Part shown: piece after piece, positions 49,702 through 62,463 of the stretch
Layout: each line of letters opens with the position of its first letter
How positions within the stretch are numbered: the first letter of the stretch is position 1
Origin: Candidatus Aminicenantota bacterium
GTDB lineage: Bacteria > Acidobacteriota > Aminicenantia > Aminicenantales > Saccharicenantaceae
Assembly: GCA_026393975.1 (NCBI GenBank)
Contig: JAPKZD010000009.1
Span: 62,001 to 126,000 of the forward strand
Reading direction: 5' to 3'
Length of the DNA: 64,000 nt
Program-made: the position numbers and the translations under genes
The notes under the pieces: model-generated
Database searches by the model: none
Seen by the model: the letters and a program-made list of their open reading frames with translations, nothing else
Told to the model about the DNA's origin: nothing

Positions 49702-50259
49702 ATGCCGAAGCCCCGTATCCTCGTCCACGTCTGTTGCGCGCCCGACGCCCTCTTCGTCTTCGGGGTCCTCAAGGAGGACTACGAGGTGGCCGGTTTTTTC
49801 TCCAACTCCAACATCCATCCCCGCGTCGAGTACGGCCTCCGCCTCGAAGAGGCCCGGAAGGTCGCCCGGACGCACAGCGTCCCCCTCATCGAGGACGACT
49901 ACGACCCGGACGGCTGGCTTCTCCTCACCCGGAAATTCAAGGACGAGCCGGAGAAGGGACGCCGCTGCGATGTCTGCTACGCCGCGAGGCTCGGCCGGAC
50001 CGCGGAACGGGCGGCCCGGGAGGGCTTCGACGCCTTCGCCACGGTCATGAGCCTCAGCCCCTGGAAAAAGGCCGCGGTCATGAACCGGATCGGCCGTCAA
50101 TTCGCCGCCCGCCACGGCCTCGCCTTCCTCGAAGCGGATTTCAAAAAGAAGGACGGCTTCAAGAAAAGCGTCGACCTCAGCCGGACCCACGGGCTCTACC
50201 GCCAAAGCTACTGCGGCTGTCTCTACAGCCTGGCTGCCGCCAAGAAGAGATCCCCATGA
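49702..50259 (+). CDS. queH: Epoxyqueuosine reductase QueH
   Basis: The protein is 185 aa, formerly DUF208. It reduces epoxyqueuosine to queuosine in tRNA, as the non-orthologous alternative to QueG. Family cysteines are visible: HVCCAPDA near the N-terminus, CDVCYAARL in the middle and SYCGC near the end, which hold the iron-sulfur cluster and iron. MSLSPWKKAAVMNRIG is a conserved stretch. Its stop overlaps hypF as ATGA. Other queuosine genes are not in the window. Confidence 0.93.
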   Translation: MPKPRILVHVCCAPDALFVFGVLKEDYEVAGFFSNSNIHPRVEYGLRLEEARKVARTHSVPLIEDDYDPDGWLLLTRKFKDEPEKGRRCDVCYAARLGRTAERAAREGFDAFATVMSLSPWKKAAVMNRIGRQFAARHGLAFLEADFKKKDGFKKSVDLSRTHGLYRQSYCGCLYSLAAAKKRSP

Positions 50260-52637
50260 GCCAAGGGCCGAGCCTTCGACTCGCCACTCGCCCGAGACTT
50301 AAATCCACGGGCGAGTACGGCGGAAGTAGACCCCCGGGCAAAGCCCGGGGCTCTGGCCGCCGCCGGAAGGCCGCGGCGCGGCTAACCGTCTTCGGCGTCG
50401 TCCAGGGCGTCGGGTTCCGGCCCTGCGTTTACCGCCTCGCCCGCCGCCTTGGGTTCGACGGCTGGGTCGAGAACACCGGCTCGGGGGTCGAGATCCATGT
50501 CGAAGGGCCGTCCGCCGCCGCCCTCGAAAAATTCCCCGCCGCCCTCCGCAGGGGCCTGCCGCCCCTGGCTGTCATCGAGAATCTCGACTTTCGCGCCGCG
50601 GCCGTCGAGGGCTTCCGGGGTTTCGAGATCCGGAAAACCCGGGACGCCGGAGGGTTCGTCTTCATCTCGCCCGACATCGCCACTTGCCCCGAATGCCTCA
50701 AGGAGATCACGACGCCCGGAGAGCGCCGCTACCGTTATGCCTTCACCAACTGCACCAACTGCGGGCCCCGCTACACGATCGTCCGGGACCTGCCCTACGA
50801 CCGGCCCCGGACGACCATGGCCGGTTTCGCGATGTGCCCGGACTGCCGGCGGGAATACGAAGACCCCCTCGACCGCAGGCATCACGCCCAGCCCATCGCC
50901 TGCCCGGTCTGCGGGCCGCGCCTGACGCTCAACGACGCGCGGACGGGGCGCGCGCTCGGCGGCGCCGTCCCCAAGGCCGCCGAACTCATCCTCAAGGGCA
51001 AGATCCTGGCCGTCAAGGGACTCGGCGGATTCCATCTCGTCTGCAACCCGTTCGACCGGAAGGCCGTCGCCCGTCTGCGCCGGGCGAAGGCCCGGCGGAC
51101 CAAACCGCTGGCCCTCATGGCCCGTGACATTGGCGTCGTCGAGCGCTTCGCCGCCGTCGGCCCGGCCGAACGGCGCCTTCTCCAATCGCCTCGCCGGCCG
51201 ATCGTCCTGCTCAAAAAAAAGAAGGACATCGCCTTCATCGCCCCCAACCTCGACGAAGTCGGCTTCATGCTGCCCTATACGCCGCTCCACCATCTCCTTC
51301 TCGAGCGGCTCGAGCTCGTCGTGGCCACAAGCTCGAACGCCAAGGACGCCCCGATCATGAAGGACGAGGAGGAAGGCGTCCGCAAGCTCTGCGACGCCGT
51401 CCTCGCCCACGACCGCCCGATCGCCATGCGGGCCGACGATTCCGTAGTCAAGGTTGCGGGCGGCCGGCCTCTCTTCGTCCGCCGGGCCAGGGGCTACGTC
51501 CCCTACCCTCAACCCGTCCCCAAAGGGCTCCGGGTCGACGCCACGCTCGTCGCCCTCGGCGGCGAGTTCAAGAACACCATCTCGTTGTACAAGAACGGCT
51601 ACGTCGTCACCAGCCAGTTCCTGGGAGACCTCGACGATTACCGGAATTTCGGCTATTTCGAAGAGACACTGGCCCATCTCCTCCGACTCTTCGACGCCAG
51701 GCCGGAGGCCGTCGTCACCGACCTTCACCCCGACTTCAGGACGACGCGCTATGCCGAAAAGATGGGCCTGCCCCATTATCGCGTCCAGCACCACTTCGCC
51801 CACGTCCTCGCCCCGCTCCTCGAGCACGGGCACCAGCCGGGCCGCCGCGTTCTGGGCGTGGCCCTCGACGGCTACGGCTACGGCGAGGACGGGACGGCCT
51901 GGGGCGGGGAGTTCCTGCTGGCCGGCTACGACGGTTACGAGCGTTTCGCCCGGTTCAAGCCCGTCCCCCTGCCCGGGGGCGACCTGGCCGCGCGCGAGCC
52001 GTGGCGGATGGCCTTGGCCTACCTCGACGAGGCCTTCGGCGCGGCCCTGCCCGACCTCGCCGTCATCCGCAGGGTCGGCAGGCGGCGCGCGGACGCCGTC
52101 TTGAAGATGGTCCACGGCGGCGTCCGGAGTCCGCTCGCCTCGAGCTGCGGCCGCCTCTTCGACGCCGCGTCTTTCCTCGCCGGCACGGCGCCCGAGCGGA
52201 TGGAATTTGAGGCCGAGGCGGCGATGCGATTCGAGGCCGCGGCCGACAAGGCGTTCCGCGGCGTCTATCCCGTTCCCCTTTCCAGCCCGGGGCCCGGCCG
52301 GCCCATGGACATATCTTTCGGTCCGCTTATCAGGACCCTTGTCCGCGATATCGAAAAGGGGACGCCCGTTTCGGTCGTGTCGGCCAGGTTCCACGATTCC
52401 CTGGCCGGACTCGTCCTCCGCGTCGCCGAGCGGGCGCGGCGCGCCCACGGGACCGATACAGTTTCGCTCGCGGGAGGGGTCTTCCTCAACAGGAGGCTTC
52501 TCGAACGGACGGAAAAACGGCTCGCTGCCAAGGGATTCCGGGTTTTCCGGCCAGTGGCTTACTCGCCCAACGACGAGTCGTTATCGCTCGGTCAGATCGC
52601 CCGGGGCTTGGCCAGGGTCAAGAACGGCGGATCCTGA
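50256..52637 (+). CDS. hypF: Carbamoyltransferase HypF (hydrogenase maturation)
   Basis: The protein is 793 aa from the ATG at 50256, with a 43-residue unusual N-terminal extension. Domain order: acylphosphatase-like (GVVQGVGFRPCVYRLA, then WVENTGSGVEIHVEG), two zinc fingers (CPECL with NCTNCGP, and CPDCRREYEDPLDRRHHAQPIACPVCGP), YrdC-like, then Kae1-like (LVALGGEFKNTISLYKNG). It makes the cyanide ligands of the [NiFe] hydrogenase site from carbamoyl phosphate with HypE. No other hyp or hydrogenase gene is in the window. It overlaps the next gene tail to tail by 20 bases. Confidence 0.95.
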   Translation: MSQGPSLRLATRPRLKSTGEYGGSRPPGKARGSGRRRKAAARLTVFGVVQGVGFRPCVYRLARRLGFDGWVENTGSGVEIHVEGPSAAALEKFPAALRRGLPPLAVIENLDFRAAAVEGFRGFEIRKTRDAGGFVFISPDIATCPECLKEITTPGERRYRYAFTNCTNCGPRYTIVRDLPYDRPRTTMAGFAMCPDCRREYEDPLDRRHHAQPIACPVCGPRLTLNDARTGRALGGAVPKAAELILKGKILAVKGLGGFHLVCNPFDRKAVARLRRAKARRTKPLALMARDIGVVERFAAVGPAERRLLQSPRRPIVLLKKKKDIAFIAPNLDEVGFMLPYTPLHHLLLERLELVVATSSNAKDAPIMKDEEEGVRKLCDAVLAHDRPIAMRADDSVVKVAGGRPLFVRRARGYVPYPQPVPKGLRVDATLVALGGEFKNTISLYKNGYVVTSQFLGDLDDYRNFGYFEETLAHLLRLFDARPEAVVTDLHPDFRTTRYAEKMGLPHYRVQHHFAHVLAPLLEHGHQPGRRVLGVALDGYGYGEDGTAWGGEFLLAGYDGYERFARFKPVPLPGGDLAAREPWRMALAYLDEAFGAALPDLAVIRRVGRRRADAVLKMVHGGVRSPLASSCGRLFDAASFLAGTAPERMEFEAEAAMRFEAAADKAFRGVYPVPLSSPGPGRPMDISFGPLIRTLVRDIEKGTPVSVVSARFHDSLAGLVLRVAERARRAHGTDTVSLAGGVFLNRRLLERTEKRLAAKGFRVFRPVAYSPNDESLSLGQIARGLARVKNGGS
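50332..50350. repeat. Perfect 8-bp stem hairpin in the 5' part of hypF
   Basis: CCCCGGGC (50332-50339), AAA, GCCCGGGG (50343-50350). The surrounding codons (residues 20-40 of HypF) are low-complexity and not family-like, so this stretch may be a small inserted palindromic element that HypF now reads through. Confidence 0.55.
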
Positions 52638-56960: not shown

Positions 56961-57104
56961 GCACGGGAACGCCCGGACAAGAGTTTGTCAGCCTATTTTC
57001 CGGCCCTATCATCCGGCTACCCCCCAGCCCCGGTCAATCACCCCTAGAGATGAACCCCGGGAGGAATTTCCCGCCGCGCCTGGGTAGAGAGTCCCGGACC
57101 GCGC

Positions 57105-57140
57105 TTGACGCATTTATATTAAATTGATAGGATATATAAT
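57105..57140 (+). promoter_or_regulatory. Predicted promoter of the cytochrome-porin operon
   Basis: TTGACG (57105-57110) is followed after 17 bases by TAGGAT (57128-57133), with a perfect TATAAT a little further on (57135-57140). The stretch 57110-57147 is strikingly AT-rich. AGGAGAG precedes the ATG at 57155. Confidence 0.45.
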
Positions 57141-57154
57141 ATTAGTAGGAGAGA

Positions 57155-57757
57155 ATGTCGGCCATGCCCGTGTCTACGGCTTGGAAAAAACATCTGTTGA
57201 GGGGGGCGCTCGTTTCCCTGTGTGGGTTCACGGCCTATGCCGGCTTCGCCCCCTCCCGCCTGCCGATGCCCGGGCGCCAGGACATCCCCGGTCCCTTGAG
57301 CGCGGCCCACGTTCCCAAGCCGGGCGAAACCGGGTGTTCGTCCTGTCACGACGAGGGGGGCAAGATGGCCGCAGCCAAGTGTCTCGCCTGCCACGCAGAG
57401 ATCGCTTCCCGCATCGCCGCCCAGAAGGGCTATCACCGGGACAAGCCGGGCGACTGCGCCCTCTGCCACGCCGAACATCAGGGCCGTCAGGCCAGTATCG
57501 TCGTTCTCGACAGAGCGAGCTTCGATCACGCCGAAACGGGCGCCGAACTGCTGGGCGCCCACCTGAAGCCCAAGGACTGCAACATGTGCCACACGCCGTC
57601 GAGCTCCTTCCCCAGAACCAAGGGCCGGTCCTACCTCCTCAAGGAGCCGGGCTGCCGGGCCTGCCACGCCTCCCCGCATCCGGGCCGTCAGGATAACTGT
57701 CTGGATTGCCATACCCAGGAGAGCTGGATGGTCGAATATCGGGAAGCGAGGAACTGA
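57155..57757 (+). CDS. Exported hexaheme c-type cytochrome
   Basis: The protein is 200 aa. An export signal (residues 10-30) is followed by six CXXCH heme sites at C61, C76, C101, C142, C167 and C182. Extra histidines (for example H94, H108, H125, H136) can act as distal ligands. Size and spacing fit the multiheme cytochrome c3/c7-like class. It precedes an outer-membrane barrel gene by 3 bases and would be the periplasmic partner of a porin-cytochrome conduit. Confidence 0.9.
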   Translation: MSAMPVSTAWKKHLLRGALVSLCGFTAYAGFAPSRLPMPGRQDIPGPLSAAHVPKPGETGCSSCHDEGGKMAAAKCLACHAEIASRIAAQKGYHRDKPGDCALCHAEHQGRQASIVVLDRASFDHAETGAELLGAHLKPKDCNMCHTPSSSFPRTKGRSYLLKEPGCRACHASPHPGRQDNCLDCHTQESWMVEYREARN

Positions 57758-57760
57758 GCC

Positions 57761-59062
57761 ATGTCCCACCGGGCGAAGTCGTTGATCGCCATCCTGGGAG
57801 CGGCACTTTTCGTCTCATGGATGCCCCTGACCGGCCAAACGGCCGGTTCCGGCTTCTACCAAAGGGGGACCGTCTACTTTGACTGGTACGGTTCACGTTA
57901 TTCCGACGGGACCTTCTTCAACCAGATCTCCGCCCGGTTCAGGTTCGACCTCATCAACCGGCCTGGGCAAGGCTGGACCCTGACCTTGGACGCCCGCGAC
58001 CGCGTCGGCATCCGCGGCACGGCGACGAACCAAGCCATCCTCTACAACGCCCGCCTGATCTTCGACAAAGCCGGCTCACCCTTTTATTTGTCCCTCGGCC
58101 AGATGAACCTCTACGACACGGCCGGGATCGGCGCGCTCCTGGGCGGGGTCGCGGGGTTCAAGGTCGGCCGCGATCTTTTGGCCGGAGCTTACGGCGGCCT
58201 CGAATCGACGCCCTACATCAACCGCCTCGACGCGAAGTATCTCAAGGCCGGCGCCTTCGTCCGCTGGCTCGGCCCGAAGGGCCGGGCGCTCGGCTTGAGC
58301 TTCAACCACTTGGCCTACGACGGCCGTGCCGAGCGGCAGTACGCCTACGCCAACCTTTTCCTTCCCGTGGAAAAGGTCCTTGTCGTCTACGGCGACGCGG
58401 AATACGAACTGGGGAACCACGTCGACGGCGCGAACCGTCTGTCGAGACTCTTCGGGAACGTCAGGCTCGACCTCGGCCGATGGGCCGACCTGACCGCGAG
58501 CTACAGCTCGGGCCGGGGCCTCGACTTCCACAGTTACCTCATCGCCGCCTCCCAAGACCCGACGATCTACGACCAGAACGTCGAGAGGTTCTACTACACG
58601 GGCTATTACGGCGTCCGGCTGAGCGTCAAGCCGACGGCCACCGTTCGCCTATCCGTGAGCCGCCAGCAGAGCGAACAGAAAGACCTCGGCATCCTCAACC
58701 ATACCTGGCAGTTCGGCGCCTCCGTCTGGAACATCCTCGGCCAGGGGATTTCCGTCATCGGGGACTACGCCCTCAACCGGGGCGACCTGTCCGAATCCGA
58801 CACCTACTACGTCTCCCTGACGAAGGATTTCGGGCGGTTCTCCCTGAACGGAAGTTTTTCCAATTCCTTCAACGGCGTGCGTTTCGATTCGAACGGCGGA
58901 GAGCCCTTGGTCATCCATCTTAACGATGCCCGGAACGTCTCGCTCGGGGCCCTCGTCCGGGTCAGCCGCAACCTCTCGGCGTCCATCGAGTACGGCGGGT
59001 TCCTCCAATCCGGCCTGAACGAACATTTTCTCTTCGTCCGATTGATCTACAGGAGCCGCTGA
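57761..59062 (+). CDS. Outer-membrane beta-barrel, porin component of the cytochrome conduit
   Basis: The protein is 433 aa with a signal peptide (1-27). The mature part is a series of amphipathic strands with tight turns (TVYFDWYGSRYSDGTFFNQISARFRFDL, and many more to the end), with no heme motif. It lies between two multiheme cytochrome genes with gaps of 3 and 7 bases, the layout of porin-cytochrome complexes, in which a barrel holds cytochromes across the outer membrane. Similarity to Geobacter OmbB or Shewanella MtrB was not tested. Confidence 0.82.
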   Translation: MSHRAKSLIAILGAALFVSWMPLTGQTAGSGFYQRGTVYFDWYGSRYSDGTFFNQISARFRFDLINRPGQGWTLTLDARDRVGIRGTATNQAILYNARLIFDKAGSPFYLSLGQMNLYDTAGIGALLGGVAGFKVGRDLLAGAYGGLESTPYINRLDAKYLKAGAFVRWLGPKGRALGLSFNHLAYDGRAERQYAYANLFLPVEKVLVVYGDAEYELGNHVDGANRLSRLFGNVRLDLGRWADLTASYSSGRGLDFHSYLIAASQDPTIYDQNVERFYYTGYYGVRLSVKPTATVRLSVSRQQSEQKDLGILNHTWQFGASVWNILGQGISVIGDYALNRGDLSESDTYYVSLTKDFGRFSLNGSFSNSFNGVRFDSNGGEPLVIHLNDARNVSLGALVRVSRNLSASIEYGGFLQSGLNEHFLFVRLIYRSR

Positions 59063-59069
59063 GGGAGCC

Positions 59070-59864
59070 ATGATCTATCTTCGTCCCAAACCCGGACTGA
59101 TCGTCCTTCTGGCCGGAGCGCTCTTCCCTCTCCTCCTCGTCCTTGGGGCGCAAAAAGGGACGGGGCAGGAGAAGGCAGTTAGGGCCGCCACGGCCAAGCC
59201 CGCCCAGGAATGGACCGCCAAGTCCCACGACAAGACGAACTTCCCTCTCATCGGAAAACATCGAACCCTGACCTGCCGGGAGTGCCACGTCAACAACGTC
59301 TTCGAAGGCACCCCGACGGATTGCGAGGTTTGCCATTGGCAGCGCCGCCAGGACGACCGGTACGGCCTCCGGCTCGGCACGCGCTGCTCCGACTGTCACA
59401 ACCCCATGTCCTGGAAGAAGGTCGACCCGGCCAAGTGGAGCCACGAGGCTGAGGCCGGATTCCGGCTCGAGGGCGTCCACCGGACCCTCGACTGCGAGGC
59501 TTGCCATGGAAGCGGCGGCTTCGCCCCCCGGCCGACCGCCTGCGCCGCCTGCCATCTCAATGACTACAACGGCACGGCCGACCCCGACCACAGGGCCGCC
59601 GGTTTCCCCCTCGATTGTACGGAATGCCATGGGAACTCGGCGAACGGCTGGACAGGGGCCTCCTTTATCCACGACTTCCCGATCCAGTCGGGCAAGCACG
59701 CCGGCCTCGCCTGCTCCGAATGCCACCGGACGAGCGACTTCCGATCCTTCAGCTGTCTCGAGTGCCACGAACAAACGGCGACGAACGACAAGCACAGCAG
59801 GACTACCGGATACGCCTACAGCTCCCCGGCCTGCTACGCCTGCCACCCGAAAGGGGCGCACTAA
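59070..59864 (+). CDS. Exported nonaheme c-type cytochrome
   Basis: The protein is 264 aa. One hydrophobic N-terminal segment (10-27) acts as export signal or anchor. Nine CXXCH sites begin at C69, C85, C106, C142, C158, C183, C215, C229 and C255. Units such as HDKTNFPLIGKHRTLTCRECH recur, with a histidine placed before each heme as likely distal ligand. With the hexaheme protein and the barrel it gives fifteen hemes for a trans-outer-membrane path. There is no lipobox, so surface attachment is open. Confidence 0.9.
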   Translation: MIYLRPKPGLIVLLAGALFPLLLVLGAQKGTGQEKAVRAATAKPAQEWTAKSHDKTNFPLIGKHRTLTCRECHVNNVFEGTPTDCEVCHWQRRQDDRYGLRLGTRCSDCHNPMSWKKVDPAKWSHEAEAGFRLEGVHRTLDCEACHGSGGFAPRPTACAACHLNDYNGTADPDHRAAGFPLDCTECHGNSANGWTGASFIHDFPIQSGKHAGLACSECHRTSDFRSFSCLECHEQTATNDKHSRTTGYAYSSPACYACHPKGAH

Positions 59865-60327: not shown

Positions 60328-62463
60328 ATGATGCCGAGATATCGACACCGTCCCCTCGCCTGGATGGGCGTTCTTGCGCTCCTCGCCGGTCTTGCCCCCT
60401 CTCTTTTCAGCCAAGAACGGTCCAAAACCCTGACCATCAGCCGCACCGAGACGTCGCCCCGGATCGACGGACTCGTCGACGACGAATGCTGGCGCGGCCG
60501 GGAGCCCGTCTCCGGCTTTTTCCAATACGACCCGGTCAACGGCTCGAAGGCGTCTGAAGAAACTCTCGTTTGGGCCGCCTACGACCAGAACTACATCTAT
60601 TTCGCCTTCCTGATGAAGGACTCCCAGCCGAACAAGATCTGGGCCGAGCTCACGCCCCGCAACGAGTTCGAAAACAACGATTCGATCACTCTCATCCTGG
60701 ACGCCTACAACGACAAACGGACGAGCATCACCTTCTCCCTGAACCCCAAGGGCATCCAGAAGAACTCCGTGGAAACGATCTGGAAGTCCGAAGCGGCCGT
60801 GCGGCCGGACGGCTGGAGCGCCGAGATGGCCATCCCCTTCAAGTCGCTGCGCTTCTCCGTCCGGGAAAGCCAGGTTTGGGGCGTCAATTTCGAAAGGTAC
60901 ATCCACCGGCTGAACGAAACCGACTACTGGACCGACGTCGACCGCGACCTGCCCAATCTCCAGCAGACCGGGGAGCTCGTCGGCCTCTCCGGCGTCCGGC
61001 CCGGCTACAACCTCGAGTTTTTCCCCTACGCCGGAGTCAGGACGTCCAAATGGGACGAAGCGACGGGCACGAAGACCGAGACGAAGGCCGCGGTCGGCCT
61101 CGACGCCAAGTGGGGCATCCAGCCCAACCTCTACCTGGACGTCACGGCCAGCCCCGACTTCAGCGAAGTCGAATCCGACCCCTTCATCTTCCAGCTCTCC
61201 CCCTACGAGAACTACCTCCAAGAAAACCGGCCTTTCTTCACCGAAGGCAGTAGCTATTTCAACCTGTCCTCGGGAGATGAATACGACGAAGGCGGCGTCA
61301 GCCTGTTCTACTCCCGGCGAATCCGCAACCCCAGGTTCGCGGCCAAGATCTCCGGAAAGACGGGCGGGTTCGGCTTCGGCATCCTCGGCGCGCTCAACAA
61401 GGAGGAGACCGGCGACTCGTTCTTCGGCGTCTTCCGCGTCCAAAAGGATATCTTCAAGAACTCCCAGGTCGGGGTCTATTATGCCGGTATCCACGACGGC
61501 GCGGACCGCAATCAGAACGTCGCCCTCGACTACAACTTCAACTTCAAGGATTTCTATTACATCCGGGGGATGAGCGCCTTCACCTTCAATGAAGGGGCTC
61601 CGTCCGCTCGAAACGGCATCCACCAGATCCAGTTCCAGACGGAGCCGGACGCCGGCCTGCAGATCATGTCGGGCTTCCAACGGGTCGAGGACAATGTCGA
61701 CATCCGGACGGGCTACGTCGACCAGGTCGACGTCCAATCCTTCGACCTCATGGCCGGCTACGCCTGGCGCTACAACAAGGGGCTCCTCAAGCGCTTCAGC
61801 CTGGATGTCGGCGGGAGCCTCAAGCAGGATTCCCACGGGAACCCGGCCGGCAACAACATGGAGTTTTTCGTCTGGACGCAATTTTTGAACCGGATCGAGG
61901 TCCATGGCGGCTTCCAGCTCGGAAAGAGCAAGTACCAGGTCCGCGACGAGACCGACGAGCTCGCCTGGACGGCGGACGACATCAAGACCTATGGCGGCAA
62001 CCTCGACTTCAGCTGGGACCGCGGCGGCTTCCTGAAAGAGGTCGGCCTCGAGACAGGATGGGAAAAACGCGGCGTCTACAACGAGGAGTTCACCGCGGTC
62101 GTTCCCGGGTCACAAACCAACATCGAGGGCCAGCTGGTCCTGCGGCCGCGGAGCAACCTCGAATGGTCGGTCGAGGGCGGCTGGATCCGCCAGACGATCG
62201 ACGGCACCGGGGCGGAGGCCTTCAACGGGCTGGCCTACCAGACGGCCCTCCACTACCAGCTCACCCGGAGCCTCTTCCTCAACACCCGCTTCCTCGGCGA
62301 GACCAGGGAGAACCAGTACAGCCTCGATTTCCTCGTCGGGTATTACTTCGGGGCCGGCAACATCGTTCAGGTCTCGTTCAAGAAGAGCGAACGGAACGAG
62401 CTCCTCGGCCGGGTGGGCGGATACTCCATCACCCTGAAGATCTCCTATCTCCTCCGCATCTGA
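60328..62463 (+). CDS. DUF5916 outer-membrane protein with CBM9-like N-terminal domain
   Basis: The protein is 711 aa with a signal peptide (1-25) and AGGAG before the ATG. Residues 30-210 form a CBM9-like sandwich: PRIDGLVDDECWRG, then ETLVWAAYDQNYIYFAFLM, LTPRNEFENNDSITLILDAYNDKRT and FSLNPKGIQKN. The rest is a DUF5916 barrel with conserved TASPDFSEVESDPFIFQLSPYE and ENRPFFTEGSSYF blocks. Such proteins are widespread in Acidobacteriota and Bacteroidota; a role in carbohydrate or peptide binding is suspected. Confidence 0.9.
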   Translation: MMPRYRHRPLAWMGVLALLAGLAPSLFSQERSKTLTISRTETSPRIDGLVDDECWRGREPVSGFFQYDPVNGSKASEETLVWAAYDQNYIYFAFLMKDSQPNKIWAELTPRNEFENNDSITLILDAYNDKRTSITFSLNPKGIQKNSVETIWKSEAAVRPDGWSAEMAIPFKSLRFSVRESQVWGVNFERYIHRLNETDYWTDVDRDLPNLQQTGELVGLSGVRPGYNLEFFPYAGVRTSKWDEATGTKTETKAAVGLDAKWGIQPNLYLDVTASPDFSEVESDPFIFQLSPYENYLQENRPFFTEGSSYFNLSSGDEYDEGGVSLFYSRRIRNPRFAAKISGKTGGFGFGILGALNKEETGDSFFGVFRVQKDIFKNSQVGVYYAGIHDGADRNQNVALDYNFNFKDFYYIRGMSAFTFNEGAPSARNGIHQIQFQTEPDAGLQIMSGFQRVEDNVDIRTGYVDQVDVQSFDLMAGYAWRYNKGLLKRFSLDVGGSLKQDSHGNPAGNNMEFFVWTQFLNRIEVHGGFQLGKSKYQVRDETDELAWTADDIKTYGGNLDFSWDRGGFLKEVGLETGWEKRGVYNEEFTAVVPGSQTNIEGQLVLRPRSNLEWSVEGGWIRQTIDGTGAEAFNGLAYQTALHYQLTRSLFLNTRFLGETRENQYSLDFLVGYYFGAGNIVQVSFKKSERNELLGRVGGYSITLKISYLLRI

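Follow-up and report, generated by a model that had tools for sequence, protein, structure and literature searches.

A small multihaem cytochrome and beta-barrel gene triad of Candidatus Aminicenantes, a probable trans-outer-membrane electron conduit of the Acidobacteriota

We analyzed a window of 64,000 nucleotides, by which we mean the whole stretch of DNA under study, from a Candidatus Aminicenantes MAG. It carries three tightly packed genes on the + strand, encoding in this order a hexahaem cytochrome, a haem-free barrel and a nonahaem cytochrome, with intergenic gaps of 3 and 7 bases. This arrangement, already given in a preliminary description of the locus, was confirmed by the open reading frames and by the CXXCH counts. 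The genes and the elements preceding them are as follows.

57039..57066, + strand: conserved element CACCCCTANNGRTGAANCCCNGGAGGAA, a candidate operator, found 5' of the triad in four genus members including the window
57105..57133, + strand: sigma-70-type promoter TTGACG-17-TAGGAT from a promoter scan, preceding the first gene
57155..57757, + strand: hexahaem c-type cytochrome ("first cytochrome"), 200 aa, signal peptide, motif PGPLSxxH; identified as an ORF with Pfam C7/C3 matches
57761..59062, + strand: outer-membrane beta-barrel, 433 aa, signal peptide, 22 predicted strands, plug domain absent
59070..59864, + strand: nonahaem c-type cytochrome ("last cytochrome"), 264 aa, signal peptide; the smallest complete member of a triheme-repeat family

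The six CXXCH motifs of the first cytochrome lie at residues 61, 76, 101, 142, 167 and 182, and the nine of the last cytochrome at residues 69, 85, 106, 142, 158, 183, 215, 229 and 255. Shuffled proteins of equal composition contained a mean of 0.06-0.08 such motifs and a maximum of 2, which rules out chance or composition as their origin. The barrel protein has no CXXCH and no cysteine at all. Outside the motifs, the nonahaem protein has exactly nine histidines and the hexahaem protein seven, so that every haem in both cytochromes could be bis-His ligated. Both matched the cytochrome c7/c3 families of Pfam, and the barrel matched no curated family, Pfam or NCBIfam, above cut-off. By inspection, a lipobox is absent from both cytochromes. 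Cys22 of the hexahaem protein has a leucine at position -1, and this free cysteine is missing in the hexahaem proteins of genus relatives. The hexahaem and barrel genes share a reading frame, with TGA and one codon between them, as they also do in L032, L033 and L035; we found no evidence of read-through between the two genes.

Upstream of the triad, the -10 block TAGGAT is retained in all five genus members that have the triad, and TTGAC in four of these. Since the sigma-70-type promoter stands before the three genes, they are likely to form one transcript. The element CACCCCTANNGRTGAANCCCNGGAGGAA is also present in G004, a relative with a deletion scar described below, and is a possible operator.

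The named relatives of the host are Candidatus Aminicenantes or Acidobacteriota MAGs. The barrel was present in 10 of the 94 genomes of the order, and a match to it was found in 23 of 396 sampled genomes of the phylum. At the readable Aminicenantes loci, the order first cytochrome, barrel, last cytochrome is retained with small gaps, and L111 and L112 are two further complete triads. The preliminary description had pointed to homologue neighbourhoods as a check, and the homologues are indeed not encoded apart: outside the class, 17 of the 19 barrel matches adjoin multihaem cytochromes, and the two that do not are the weakest ones (E values of 7e-4 and 4e-3). Furthermore, the Aminicenantes profiles of both cytochromes match barrel-adjacent cytochromes elsewhere in the phylum, with E values of 1e-60 and far below. 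Beyond Aminicenantes, where both cytochromes were seen, the gene order is usually first, last, barrel. A distant relative (L081) has both cytochromes in a single 51-haem polypeptide, encoded directly before the barrel, and the last-cytochrome motif CHWQRRxDD stands in the middle of this polypeptide; L092 looks similar, with 53 haems. Because the two proteins are fused in L081, we think that both cytochromes form one chain, and this is our best argument for it. These comparisons show the triad to be a real conserved unit. No relatives were found on viral contigs.

The triad is missing or reduced in parts of the genus. In the sister genome G004 (L030, G004:C109, ~1441-1869), the barrel is gone and the flanking genes are retained; between them lies a 143-aa in-frame chimera, in which hexahaem residues 1-122 continue directly into the tail of the last cytochrome. 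This scar represents either a deletion or an assembly join. G002 and G003 show no remnant of the triad, and its flanking genes are separated there by ~0.9 kb. Because of these three genomes and of the restricted occurrence of the barrel in the order, we consider the conduit to be dispensable in the genus.

The last cytochrome is built from units of three haems. An alignment divides the window copy into three parts.

59226..59399, + strand: N-cap with three haems, HDKTNFPLxGKHRTLxCRECH...CHWQRRQDDRY...CH; a similar motif lies within the 51-haem L081 fusion
59478..59630, + strand: single internal triheme unit with 16-25 spacing; there are two in 12-haem congeners and up to six in others
59670..59855, + strand: C-cap with three haems, HxFPIxSGKH..CxxCH..CxxCH....GYxYxSxxCYxCHPxG

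The architecture of the family is thus an N-cap, one to six triheme units and a C-cap, with CXXCH spacings of 16 and 21 in the N-cap, of 16, 25 and ~32 in the internal units, and of 14 and 26-28 in the C-cap. The C-cap is kept in the complete last cytochromes of Aminicenantes and throughout the phylum. Among 14 complete Aminicenantes last cytochromes, the haem count is 9 (the window), 12, 15, 21 or 24, in all cases a multiple of three. When aligned with its 12-haem congeners, the window protein shows a single clean gap of ~72 residues, equal to three haems. The window copy thus appears to lack one 72-residue three-haem unit of these congeners and would be the shortest complete member of the family. 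A collapsed assembly repeat, which could also yield 9 rather than 12 haems, is unlikely because neighbouring triheme units clearly differ in sequence. A PDB profile search with the last cytochrome returned only the 16-haem protein 1z1n at E <= 0.01.

The spacing 15-25-41-25-15 is common to 10 of the 13 aligned first cytochromes, the exceptions having 5, 14 or 23 haems; it is palindromic and near-invariant among homologues. In L038, the fifth motif reads YQACH and one haem is lost. Cytochromes with 23 haems across the phylum begin with the N-terminal motif of the hexahaem protein, which is a shortened relative of these proteins, akin to their N-terminal part. The DmsE decahaem model was unmatched by the window cytochromes, and a 23-haem relative scored far below its cut-off (60 versus 192 bits). 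Haem counts had been proposed as the mark of a distinct class; they vary from 6 to 23 (first cytochrome) and from 9 to 24 (last cytochrome) within the same family and do not serve this purpose. The notion of a distinct class holds in sequence terms only, and only as far as these comparisons reach, in that the barrel matched no curated Mtr porin model and its profile matched no PDB chain by sequence.

We then turned to the structure of the barrel. AlphaFold2, run with 25 homologues, predicted 22 strands without a plug and with longer loops on one side (pLDDT 87, pTM 0.76). Foldseek with this model returned only outer-membrane barrels, including MtrB (6r2q_B, E value of 6.5e-7), FimD/PapC and OprD/Occ channels. 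Because the TM-scores reached only ~0.55, the modelled barrel appears to have no close solved relative. By geometry, its radius would be ~20 Å at 22 strands versus 23.5 Å at 26 strands, so that the predicted plug-free barrel is not obviously too narrow to hold a cytochrome, a concern that had been raised for this locus. Among Aminicenantia barrels, positional conservation was higher on the lumen face than on the lipid face (0.85 versus 1.33 bits), in a test that is partly circular as the faces were assigned by hydrophobicity. A fused hexahaem-barrel model, in which translation with table 4 carried the chain past the in-frame TGA, kept the same 22 barrel strands but left the cytochrome unplaced (pTM 0.55, hexahaem pLDDT ~40).

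Possible electron donors lie next to some of the triads. In L037 (4360-6989), L041 (10404-13123) and L042 (3813-6455), a molybdenum enzyme of the xanthine dehydrogenase family abuts the triad, on either side. It is encoded by two genes, for the 2Fe-2S and Mo subunits, and the large subunit opens with a twin-arginine-type leader; this enzyme is a possible periplasmic donor to the triad. Relatives in the phylum have flavoprotein/ferredoxin or FNR-type reductases nearby. The flanks of the window triad contain neither the Mo enzyme nor a reductase of these types. A Mo-hydroxylase orthologue elsewhere in the window genome was considered and rejected, the sole candidate being 30% identical and unlinked to the triad. 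The same genome harbors a cluster (L078, G000:C21, 4759-8977) in which two overlapping multihaem frames, of 4 and 5 haems, lie between ResB and cytochrome b561; it is a possible quinol-side input to the periplasm.

Overall, the triad probably encodes an MtrAB-like trans-outer-membrane electron conduit. Both cytochromes would be matured in the periplasm, and one or both would insert into the barrel from its periplasmic end. Together, they would make up one continuous haem chain from the periplasm to the cell surface with no separate surface lipoprotein, as in MtrAB and PioAB, and electrons would pass from periplasmic carriers through this chain to an acceptor outside the cell, be it minerals, humics or a partner cell. 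The length of the chain outside the barrel would be altered by gaining or losing triheme units, the window copy being the shortest. MtrAB alone carries electrons over a membrane, and MtrA has 333 aa and 10 haems (PMC4245776), which makes it similar in size to the 12-haem congeners of our nonahaem protein. With regard to the occupant of the lumen, the constant length favours the hexahaem protein, and the size relative to MtrA favours the last cytochrome. More tentatively, and with rather less confidence than in the conduit as such, we propose that this system evolved independently in the Acidobacteriota: two cytochromes would act as a single haem chain through a 22-strand barrel that stays constant, and the reach would be tuned in whole triheme steps, from 9 to 24 haems in Aminicenantes and longer elsewhere.

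Other readings of the locus lead to different topologies. The preliminary description had read the locus as a porin-cytochrome conduit, by comparison with Geobacter Pcc and Shewanella MtrCAB. The conserved unit of a barrel and two multihaem cytochromes stands, with a conduit as its most likely function, but the division into one periplasmic and one surface cytochrome found no support. In that three-part layout, one cytochrome occupies the periplasm and the barrel and the other is exported to the surface, where it reduces the acceptor. The gene order in Aminicenantes, cytochrome-barrel-cytochrome, would suit it, as would weak matches of the first cytochrome profile to MtrC/MtrF domains (E value of ~5e-4, possibly driven by CXXCH). 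However, neither cytochrome carries a lipobox, and the L081 fusion joins both in one polypeptide without an intervening barrel, which is hard to reconcile with opposite sides of the membrane unless the chain threads the barrel. We thus regard this layout as unlikely.

Alternatively, the barrel might be a substrate channel that admits a soluble oxidant such as an oxyanion, to be reduced by the cytochromes in the periplasm with no wire across the membrane. OprD/Occ and chitoporin channels do rank high in the Foldseek search, and the Geobacter porin ExtI belongs to a cytochrome-rich cluster tied to selenite and tellurite (PMC5877670). Nevertheless, 22 plug-free strands are wider than the 16-18-strand solute channels, the lumen face is the more conserved one (with faces assigned by hydrophobicity), and chains of 24-51 haems seem far beyond the needs of a periplasmic reductase, which makes a channel quite improbable. 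The conduit could finally run inward, taking up electrons from Fe(II), minerals or a partner as in PioAB or MtoAB, and Fe(II) oxidisers often have layouts without a surface cytochrome (PMC4245776). The Mo-hydroxylases and NADH-type reductases beside the triads of relatives point instead to outward flow, and the literature on Acidobacteriota clusters (PMC8528874) favours metal-oxide reduction. We give inward transport very little weight against a conduit that exports electrons.

We then compared the triad with known systems. In Shewanella MtrAB/MtrCAB and Rhodopseudomonas PioAB, a barrel is likewise clustered with a periplasmic multihaem wire, and MtrB was among our structural matches. However, the Mtr/Pio barrel has 26 strands and ~700 aa versus 22 strands and 433 aa here, and the triad has no curated MtrB/PioB match, a different cytochrome family and no MtrC. 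In Geobacter Pcc (OmbB-OmaB-OmcB), two multihaem cytochromes are likewise clustered with a barrel, but these are OmaB with 8 haems and OmcB, a lipoprotein with 12, whereas the triad has no lipoprotein and no curated family match. The last cytochrome resembles the Geobacter "nanowire" cytochromes GSU1996 (12 haems) and GSU2210 (27 haems), whose triheme c7-like modules give a haem number that is a multiple of three (PMC10138318); the Pfam c7 model matches it as well. Unlike for the last cytochrome, no association with a barrel is stated for these proteins in the available part of that source, and our profile, searched against the PDB at E 0.01, did not match GSU1996. By the features compared, the triad most likely works like a porin-cytochrome conduit and would lie outside the Mtr group.

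Multihaem/barrel clusters have been reported before in this phylum, although a 2014 survey of Pcc did not mention Acidobacteria. One study (PMC8528874) describes clusters of multihaem cytochromes and a predicted barrel in marine Acidobacteriota and in the Fe/Mn-oxide reducer Thermoanaerobaculum aquaticum, with metal-oxide reduction as the proposed role. Compared by description, the part of it consulted contains no Aminicenantes triad, no triheme-step series and no miniature form. The Group 1 porin-cytochrome clusters of karst MAGs (PMC13264449, 2026) pair a 4-5 kb cytochrome gene with a barrel of ~20 strands; a ferredoxin-NADP reductase is often found close by, which is also the case in L083 and L092. 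They are decahaem by description, and in this comparison the window triad is far smaller and without the reductase. No smaller form of this Acidobacteriota-wide family was found than the triad of the window.

Earlier work portrays Aminicenantes as fermenters, one example being the Kadnikov 2019 genome paper cited in PMC7509429. A conserved conduit would imply that some of them are able to respire extracellularly or to feed a partner. A constant barrel with a wire that varies in triheme steps offers a natural experiment relating wire length to electron export, and the 6+9-haem form would be a convenient minimal conduit for rebuilding in a laboratory strain.

Further genes were noted in the window and in the order. 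A large DUF5916/CBM9-like protein is encoded 3' of the triad (60328-62463); it has several paralogues per genome, and the gene is retained in the genus even where the triad is missing. By inspection, a HypF-like hydrogenase maturation protein lies at ~50240-52637. In another genome of the same order (G034; L109, G034:C114, 7678-10968), a 10-haem protein, a 12-haem protein and a 462-aa protein are clustered. The 12-haem protein is more distantly related to the last cytochrome and is the one such relative found without the barrel of the triad, and the 462-aa protein is probably a different barrel.
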